Shown here piece by piece: positions 33,484 to 36,076 of a DNA stretch of 64,000 bases (position 1 is its first letter; every line of letters starts with the position of its first letter). The translations under genes were made by a program, and so were the position numbers. The DNA comes from Paenibacillus donghaensis. Lineage in GTDB: Bacteria; Bacillota; Bacilli; Paenibacillales; Paenibacillaceae. The notes below the pieces were generated by a model that saw nothing but the letters and a program-made list of their open reading frames with translations, did no database searches and had not been told where the DNA came from. Where the stretch lies: the NCBI RefSeq assembly GCF_002192415.1, contig NZ_CP021780.1, positions 6,510,001 through 6,574,000 on the forward strand, in the 5' to 3' direction.

Positions 33484-33950
33484 CGAAGCGCTGAAGGACG
33501 TGGACCCGGAAGAACGAAAGGCCGCCCGAATGGAGCGCAGCGGCCCCATTCGGGCGGCTTTTTCCGTGTGACTGCATCAGCAAAAGTCCGGCGTCCTCCC
33601 CAAGAGCGCTCTGGGGGAGGCGATCACCTACAGCCTGAATCAGTGCGAAAAGTTGACGGACTTTTTAAAGGATGGACGGCTGGAGATCAACAACAACCGC
33701 AGCGAGCGTTCGATTAAACCGTTTGTCATTGGGCGAAAGAACTGGCTGTTTGCGAATACGTCCCGTGGCCCAGGCCAGCGCCGTGATTTACAGCGTGATA
33801 GAGACGGCGAAAGAGAACGGACTGAATCCGTTCCAGTACTTGAAATTTCTGTTCGAACAGCTTCCGCAACTCCCCGATCCGAACGATACGGAAGCCTTGG
33901 ACAAGCTAATGCCATGGTCACCTGCACTCCCGCTCATTTGTCGGGTAGCT
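33465..33950 (+). pseudogene. IS66 family transposase (TnpC) C-terminal remnant
   Basis: Frames broken by at least two shifts read, in order, KFDEALKDVDPEERKAARME, then KSALGEAITYSLNQCEKL and RLEINNNRSERSIKPFVIGR, KNWLFANTSRG, and in another frame YSVIETAKENGLNPFQYLKF. These are the C-terminal third of the IS66 DDE transposase, including the NNRSER region with the last catalytic residue. The N-terminal two thirds are missing. It is not functional. Confidence 0.85.
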
Positions 33951-34035
33951 AGACCTTAATTCAGTCTGTCGCGACCCTCATCTGTTGAACAGGTGGCCTG
34001 GTTTGACGCTTACCTATAGAACGCGACCAACATGG

Positions 34036-34921
34036 ATTTCAAATCCACAATCCCGCACGGGGAGTGACAGTCGAACAGTTCCCAGCTCTTGAGTCTCTTT
34101 CCAAATTTCAATCCACACTCCCGCATGGGGAGTGACTACCGAAGGGCCTGCCCATTTTTTTCCATCAGATTTCAATCCACACTCCCGCACGGGGAGTGAC
34201 ATTACTCTCATCCATCAGCCTCTGTATTCTTTCAATTTCAATCCACACTCCCGCACGGGGAGTGACGAGCAAGCTTAATCTCGCCCTTGTAATCCGTTTA
34301 TTTCAATCCACACTCCCGCACGGGGAGTGACTTCAACCAAGCGCCGGCCGATTTCGATACTGGCAATTTCAATCCACACTCCCGCACGGGGAGTGACAAA
34401 GTTGTACTTTCGTTATTCGCAGTAATAACTTTATTTCAATCCACACTCCCGCACGGGGAGTGACGCTGGCTGGGGTCCCGTTAATAAACACAGATACCGA
34501 TTTCAATCCACACTCCCGCACGGGGAGTGACATTGTATTGTACGGTACGCCCGCCCTGGCATCCTATTTCAATCCACACTCCCGCACGGGGAGTGACGTT
34601 ACATGGGTCGCCTGCTCTAGCGCCCAGGTATTATTTCAATCCACACTCCCGCACGGGGAGTGACGAGAAATCCATTGATTTATAGTACCGGACGTGGAAT
34701 TTCAATCCACACTCCCGCACGGGGAGTGACTCACTATATTTCTTCATTCTGGCACGCTCGATTAATTTCAATCCACACTCCCGCACGGGGAGTGACCCAA
34801 GGTAATCCGTCTCCATGTCCATCCATACCGCCACACTCCCGCACGGGGAGTGACTTTCCTCCTGTCGTACTCTTTAGCTTAACTCAGTTCCATACCGCCA
34901 CACTCCCGCACGGGGAGTGAC
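34036..34921 (-). CRISPR. CRISPR array, type I-C-like, 14 repeats and 13 spacers
   Basis: Repeat unit (transcribed orientation, minus strand) starts GTCACTCCCCGTGCGGGAGT and ends GTGGATTGAAAT: 32 bp, the type I-C signature with a strong internal hairpin. Repeats end (plus coordinates) at 34068, 34136, 34200, 34266, 34331, 34397, 34464, 34531, 34597, 34664, 34730, 34796, 34854 and 34921; spacers are 32-36 bp. The leader is on the right. The two distal repeats (34036, 34105) are mutated, as expected at the old end. The two leader-proximal repeats have the last eight bases ATTGAAAT replaced by CGGTATGG. No cas gene is in this window. Confidence 0.97.
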
Positions 34922-35095
34922 AGCGATTTTCAACTAAAAAAAGGGATTAAACCCTATTTCCATATTAAAAATATGCCTTTATTCTCTAATCAAAAACTAA
35001 AAACGCTATAAACTTAATTAATACATACAAATAATGTTAAAAACATGGTGCGAAGGACCCGGGGAAATCATGTGAGCTATACATTCGCACTTCAA
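34922..35095 (-). promoter_or_regulatory. CRISPR leader
   Basis: AT-rich sequence directly upstream (minus strand) of the first repeat, bounded at the far side by an inverted repeat GTGCGAA/TTCGCAC (35048-35054 and 35084-35090) enclosing CATGATTTCCCCGGGTCC. Leaders of this composition, with a similar GTGCGAA palindrome, occur next to cas2 in type I-C loci (from memory). Orientation agrees with the repeat sequence and the decayed repeats at the other end. Confidence 0.75.
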
Positions 35096-35430
35096 CATTC
35101 AACTCGATTCATAATCTACTAAGTCATTTTTATTTTACCATATATCTTTTATTTCCCCTTACTTCATTTCTGGATTTGTTGAAAATTTATTAAGGACTAC
35201 TTTCTGGGAAAAAAATAATTTAGCAAAGGTTGAGGTAGAGGATAAATGGAGGGGAATTAGGGAACTGTAGGCGCGATGACGATGGCCTGATAGCTTTCTA
35301 TAGGAAAGCTATCTCCGGGTATAAGATGTTTGTCCATACTTTCACCAGATGTTGGTGTATAGGGTCAATTGCAGCCAAAAATCTCAAGCTCTGCTTCAGG
35401 TTCTTTGTATACTTCCTCCTCATCTTCTGG
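35096..35430. other. Gene-free stretch beyond the CRISPR leader
   Basis: No cas gene or remnant is recognisable. A GATAGCTTTC/GAAAGCTATC hairpin sits at about 35287-35312. On the minus strand 35365-35434, 22 codons ending in PEAELEIFGCN before TGA could be the tail of a lost gene cut off by the repeat element at 35431; this is weak. Confidence 0.4.
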
Positions 35431-35575: not shown

Positions 35576-35763
35576 TAATGCCTCTAATTCCATATAACGA
35601 GTGGATTTCGCAAAACTAAGGTACAGAATTGCCTCTATTCGCAGCTCAGCTCACCGCTGCTCCACTCGCGCAAACCTTTGTGCAACTTGTTACTTTTACT
35701 GCCTTTAAGTCGGGAGGACGCTATCTCGCGCGTCAACCAAAAATCATAAAATAAATACTCAAC

Positions 35764-36066
35764 AAGTAGAAACGGCTTCGCCGTCCTCTGCAAGAGGCGG
35801 CATCCGTTTCTGCGAGAAATAGAAGGATAAAGCATCAGGTGAAACTCATACTTTCTTATATTTCAAGTAGAAACGGCTTCACCGTCCTCTGTAAGAGACG
35901 GTGTCCGTTTCTGCGAGAAATAGAAGGATAAAGCATCAGGTGAAACTTATACTTTCTTATATTTCAAGTAGAAACGGCCTCGCCGTCCTCTGCAAGAGGC
36001 GGTGTCCGTTTCTGCGAGAAATAAAAGGATAAAGCATCAGGTGAAACTTATACTTTCTTATATTTC
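35764..36066. repeat. Three tandem copies of the 101-bp GAAACGG element
   Basis: Units start at 35764, 35865 and 35966, each exactly 101 bp. Each opens AAGTAGAAACGG, folds as an imperfect hairpin (GAAACGGCTTCGCCG with a compensating CGG...CCGTTTC side), continues GCGAGAAATAGAAGGATAA and ends in ACTTTCTTATATTTC. Single copies occur at 3640 (inverted), 16171, 37990 and 40338, with fragments at 2398 and 32343. No open frame. Confidence 0.9.
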
Positions 36067-36076
36067 AAGAAGAAAA

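Follow-up and report, generated by a model that had tools for sequence, protein, structure and literature searches.

In type I-E and I-B CRISPR systems, internal motifs set the length of the repeat, and the cut falls at a fixed 8-10 bp downstream of them. Two molecular rulers were reportedly described in type I-E by Goren et al. in 2016, and repeat motifs of the I-B system are said to have been worked out in Haloarcula hispanica. In Escherichia coli I-E, the last base of the repeat, the 'duplicon', arrives with the spacer. For the type II-A system of Streptococcus thermophilus, the available sections of Kim et al. 2019 (PMC6895254) describe a second cut that is positioned by distance, that is, by a ruler, and they mention that rulers have been shown for I-E and I-B as well. 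The end of the repeat is not always ignored by integrases, since a II-A block-5 repeat mutant underwent integration at the leader-repeat junction and none at the repeat-spacer junction (same sections of PMC6895254), and since the second cut of type V-A depends on the sequence of the spacer-proximal repeat end in addition to a ruler, according to the available part of PMC13034035.

Here we analyze a type I-C-like array in a 64,000-nucleotide stretch of the Paenibacillus donghaensis genome (the window), in which eight bases of a spacer are best read as having become part of the repeat. The I-E work of Goren et al. (2016) and the I-B work differ from this locus in concerning other subtypes and engineered repeats; the available sections of PMC6895254 give no rule for I-C. 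In the 'duplicon', as would be the case in the window array, repeat-looking sequence comes from incoming DNA; however, the 'duplicon' is one base, brought by every acquisition from the end of the prespacer, whereas the capture in the window array would be a single event involving eight bases of the spacer acquired before. As far as the available sections of PMC6895254 go, S. thermophilus II-A shares with the window array the proposed copying step, in which distance sets the second cut, but there the changes were engineered and 1-3 nt long, in contrast to a natural eight-base capture in type I-C. We found no description of such a natural capture in the literature searched, which included the available portions of PMC6895254, PMC13034035, PMC8047081, and PMC6519985.

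Structure of the array

The array runs on the minus strand, with its leader on the high-coordinate side, and is composed of the features listed below.

34036..34921, minus strand: type I-C-like CRISPR array of 13 repeats and a degenerate 14th; no nearby cas genes found
34036-34068, minus strand: degenerate 14th repeat (R14) at the distal end of the array
34765..34796, minus strand: repeat R3, the first canonical repeat, with the ATTGAAAT end; its intact 5' border adjoins spacer S
34797..34830, minus strand: spacer S, 34 nt; its first 8 nt (34823-34830) are read as the tail copied into R1
34823..34854, minus strand: repeat R2, taken to be 32 bp long, with the CGGTATGG tail at 34823-34830
34855..34889, minus strand: newest spacer, 35 nt, which by leader polarity would post-date the shortening of the repeat
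34890..34921, minus strand: leader-proximal repeat R1, with the canonical 24-bp head and the CGGTATGG tail (34890-34897)
34922..35121, minus strand: leader; of 100 genus genomes, 34 have a match, the window's own genome (G000) included, and further matches lie at other arrays within the same genome

The canonical repeat of the array, GTCACTCCCCGTGCGGGAGTGTGG-ATTGAAAT, is of type I-C. R3 to R12 have the full sequence GTCACTCCCCGTGCGGGAGTGTGGATTGAAAT, with identical 24-bp heads, and R13 keeps the ATTGAAAT end with a single change in its head. R1 and R2 both read GTCACTCCCCGTGCGGGAGTGTGG+CGGTATGG, which bears out the first-pass annotation in its claim that the same replacement of the terminal eight bases is present in both leader-proximal repeats, R3-R13 having ATTGAAAT at this place. 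Because an A follows CGGTATGG in both repeats, the stretch common to their ends amounts to nine bases; the chance that two unrelated spacers share their first eight bases is 4^-8 (1.5e-5). On re-measurement, the R2-R3 distance was again 58 bp and the R1-R2 distance a normal 67 bp, and the remaining distances were 64-68 bp, a range slightly wider than the 65-67 bp first given. The 14 repeats counted at that time consist of 13 clear ones and the degenerate R14.

Spacer S (CGGTATGGATGGACATGGAGACGGATTACCTTGG) has a length of 34 nt, which is the commonest in the array and is shared by five of the 11 other spacers. The leader ends in AAAATCGCT and S in CCTTGG, and R3 begins right after S, with no leader bases between them. 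Spacer 7 (34465-34499) and spacer S (34797-34830) both begin with CGGTAT (6 nt), which is probably a coincidence. None of the tested neighbors of the array is a cas gene. The C-terminal fragment of an IS66-family transposase is located at 33653-33952, on the distal side of the array, and a 101-bp tandem repeat in three copies (94% matches) occupies 35763-36075, approximately 640 bp past the 200-bp leader stretch.

Type I-C assignment and cas genes

The repeat of the array is of the 32-bp GTCGC/GTCAC...GTGGATTGAAA(T/C) kind that is found beside I-C cas genes. A repeat with 2 mismatches to it over the 32 positions belongs to an array in Petralouisia muris (L044), which adjoins cas7 (Csd2; cut by the end of the locus), cas4, the I-C cas1 (cas1c), and cas2. 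From the 34 genomes with a leader match, 15 were probed for I-C Cas1, and a match was present in 11 of them (10 above the curated cut-off), in several cases just upstream of the leader match, as in G030 and G054; the four probed genomes without a match were G000, G036, G052, and G029. On this evidence, leaders of this type are those of I-C arrays.

The genome of the window is assembled as a single contig of 8,542,333 bases (8.54 Mb), in which the searches for subtype cas genes covered three families and returned no match at E <= 0.001 for Cas1 (PF01867, TIGR03640), Cas7 (PF05107), or Csd1 (TIGR01863). The I-C-type arrays of this genome appear to be orphans, judged on these three families only, and the window array is probably a relic, since none of the cas genes sought turned up in the genome. 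For the same reason, the capture event is probably old and predates the loss of Cas1, Cas7, and Csd1. At C1:145-159 kb of the same genome (locus L017), a span of about 14 kb contains several more I-C-type arrays, whose repeat versions differ.

Probable copying of spacer bases by a fixed 32-bp measurement

If a ruler had copied captured spacer bases, the changed tail would be expected in the newer repeats and the canonical tail in the older ones, and the unit at the switch between them would be expected to be short by the captured length. Both features are found here: CGGTATGG ends R1 and R2, ATTGAAAT ends R3-R13, and the unit at the switch measures 58 bp against 64-68 bp elsewhere. The arithmetic is exact, in that a 24-bp repeat and a 34-nt spacer add up to 58, and a 32-bp copy measured from the leader takes in CGGTATGG. 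Since the length of the unit equals 24 + 34, the eight nucleotides are assigned to spacer S. At the acquisition following that of S, a distance of 32 bp from the leader, and not the end sequence, would have fixed the spacer-side cut; 24 bp of repeat and the first eight bases of S would have been copied together as a new 'repeat', and later acquisitions would each inherit the altered tail. Directly observed are the tails, the unit lengths, the intact borders adjoining them, and their rarity in the genomes sampled; the order of events and the descent of the eight bases from a spacer are inferred. Well supported is the reading in which spacer S (34 nt) begins with these eight bases and a fixed measurement of 32 bp then carried them into a new repeat, because the lengths fit, because such copying has been published for engineered repeats (available sections of PMC6895254), and because a second natural array, L044, displays the same pattern. 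We consider the copying step very likely to have taken place in the window array.

A protospacer for S, a check that the first-pass annotation had proposed, was found in none of the sets searched. Comparison with phages and plasmids (blastn) gave best E-values of 1 and 3, which is the level of chance; seven patterns run against viral contigs gave only four partial matches, with 12-13 of the 34 bases different; and 100 genus genomes, at up to three mismatches, gave only S itself. The whole array, searched against phages and plasmids, yielded 2 and 11 records, which presumably represent further arrays of similar repeat sequence.

In L044, the two newest repeats (R1 and R2) end in ATTGATTA, the tails of R3-R33 begin with ATTGAAA, and the R2-R3 unit measures 59 bp, compared with 65-66 bp in the neighboring units printed. 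The last three bases of the changed tail (TTA), common to both newest repeats, are unlike the canonical end. A cut in this repeat is possible at positions 24 to 29, corresponding to a spacer of 35-30 nt, and a mis-cut with a normal spacer of 33-35 nt would need 3-5 bases of chance identity. No protospacer for the L044 spacer was found in viral contigs (one 20-base pattern) or phages (best E 4), and in its own genome and 250 family genomes it matched only itself. By its repeat tails and unit lengths, L044 can be taken as a second natural case of the pattern seen in the window. In each of these two arrays, a single further spacer followed the event.

Rarity in the genus and family

The genome collections contained one genome per species. 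The genus sample comprised 891 units in 54 chains, each with three or more repeats, at loci L060-L124 near leader-related matches, and included the window's array; loci in this series without a three-repeat chain were left uncounted, and L087, L095, and L108 gave two chains each. Within this sample, 98.99% of the units measure 63-72 bp and ATTGAAAT ends 857 of the 891 repeats. A 58-bp unit occurs once and the CGGTATGG tail twice, all of them the window's own. Other canonical-length repeats ending in CGGTATGG, which the first-pass annotation had named as evidence that would speak against its reading, are therefore absent from the 54 chains, where this end is confined to R1 and R2. The tails CGCACCCC and CACTCTGT (L075, L114) are register errors of the regular expression used in chain parsing, and GGATTGAA (8 tails) is probably another. 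At the start of the L110 array (G019), R1 and R2 end in ATTGAAAA, each with the same spacer after it, R3 has AGTTGAAAA, and the older repeats end in ATTGAAAT.

This distribution bears on the idea that the changed tail was acquired from another array or repeat type ending in CGGTATGG, through recombination or gene conversion, or arose by parallel mutation of the repeat end, an origin that we regard as very unlikely. CRISPR arrays do recombine, and CGGTAT also starts spacer 7; however, no further CGGTATGG end was seen among the other I-C repeats read in the window's genome or in the 54 parsed chains, and conversion does not predict an R2-R3 unit that is 8 bp short beside a normal R1-R2 unit.

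At the level of the family, 394 genomes were scanned for a base other than A at repeat position 25 followed by a later repeat, using exact matches to I-C repeats of the CTCCC..GGGAG class only; the scan returned the window, in two places, and G293, where the change is a 1-nt G insertion. The genome_contigs scan, likewise restricted to exact matches of the CTCCC..GGGAG class, covered 23 loci. Short units with intact tails were present in six (L040, L041, L046, L047, L051, and L055), changed tails in two (L044 and L052), and a probable assembly artefact with N in one (L034). The other 14 were uninformative: the motif lay inside a spacer (L038), in the last repeat of an array (L053, L056), in isolation (L042), or at an inverted junction (L039), or the match was due to chance (L035, L036, L037, L043, L045, L048, L049, L050, and L054).

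The short unit of L034, also recorded as L099, is probably a product of sequencing or assembly, its repeat containing N and the following spacer repeating a neighboring one. For the window array, an artefact is very unlikely: the stretch contains no N, the assembly is one contig of 8,542,333 bases, and the tail occurs twice with different sequences after each copy.

Origin of the shortened repeat

The copying step presupposes a repeat that had already lost its last eight bases. Mis-registered integration by type I-C Cas1-Cas2, followed by a fixed-length copy, would explain the array with two acquisitions, and we give it close to an even chance. On insertion of S, the leader-side cut would have been exact and the spacer-side cut would have fallen 8 bp early, after repeat position 24, creating a new leader-proximal repeat of only 24 bp. 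The leader-side cut is taken as exact because R3 starts right after S without leader bases; a shift of both cuts by 8 bp, with 32 bp kept, was rejected, because it would have left leader sequence at the 3' end of S, which has none. In favor of the mis-cut, the R2-R3 unit of 58 bp resolves into 24 + 34, with 34 nt the commonest spacer length, next to a normal R1-R2 unit of 67 bp, and the two newest repeats of L044 exhibit the same pattern beside I-C cas genes. Against it count the chance identity that a normal spacer in L044 would need, the role of the repeat end in II-A and V-A integration, and the failure of the protospacer searches to confirm a start of S at CGGTATGG.

Alternatively, a deletion may have come first. 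S would then have been acquired behind a 32-bp repeat, an 8-11 bp deletion would have removed ATTGAAAT, perhaps with up to about 3 nt of S, and the next acquisition would have copied 32 bp with eight spacer bases. We see this as a substantial possibility, though short of an even one. It is favored by truncated repeats away from the leader, which, lacking inheritance at the leader end, also argue against the mis-cut. In L052, repeat 79 of at least 96 is broken after GTGG, in a 56-bp unit whose upstream neighbor is canonical; in L124, from the same genome as the window, repeat 12 of 14 is broken after GTGG, in a 41-bp unit; and in L103, the sequence of repeat 25 of 26 changes after ATT, giving the tail ATTCACAT, in a 61-bp unit. 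Given these three arrays, truncation need not involve the leader end. They favor plain deletion, at least there, and their breaks may stem from deletion or, within an array, from ectopic insertion. The short units with intact repeat tails at six of the 23 genome_contigs scan loci likewise count for a deletion, and an original S starting with G, GG, or TGG would have provided it with 1-3 bp of microhomology, the corresponding spacers of 35-37 nt being within range. If S lost nothing, however, the single possible route to the product is an 8-bp deletion without microhomology, exactly at the repeat-spacer border. Moreover, the remaining 34 nt happen to be the commonest spacer length, a coincidence that the mis-cut does not need. 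Of the single mis-registered acquisition claimed in the first-pass annotation, the part in which the start of S is copied by a 32-bp measurement is well supported, and the first loss may have been either a mis-cut or an 8-11 bp deletion.

Returning to the mis-cut, breaks fall at position 24 in three arrays (the window, L052, and L124) and elsewhere in L103, which hints at a preferred site, although three cases are too few for a test. A broader proposal, which we consider unlikely, is that the I-C integrase repeatedly misplaces its second cut at the boundary between GTGG and ATTGAAAT, which is position 24 in the 32-bp repeat of this type. One wrong cut would then permanently replace the conserved crRNA handle in all later repeats, and it would be selection for crRNA function, rather than the copying step, that maintains the conserved ATTGAAA end.

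Implications for repeat maintenance

The handle of an I-C crRNA is 11 nt long, and the replaced bases lie within it, as had been recognized before. In RNA folding predictions, the canonical hairpin has a frequency of 0.87 in the normal repeat, and the best structure of the altered repeat is a different one, with a frequency of 0.36. With an altered handle and this predicted fold, R1 and R2 would probably yield poor crRNAs. The effect on the crRNA 5' handle that had been anticipated is probably of no consequence in the present genome, because no Cas1, Cas7, or Csd1 was found in it.

The array can be viewed as a natural experiment in the maintenance of CRISPR repeat length. Despite the foreign last eight bases, the second acquisition appears to have measured 32 bp from the leader, and the I-C machinery therefore probably needs no repeat-end sequence to place the second cut. 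The array further points to a reason for the scarcity of such errors: later repeats would all inherit the changed tail, which is predicted to disturb the hairpin.
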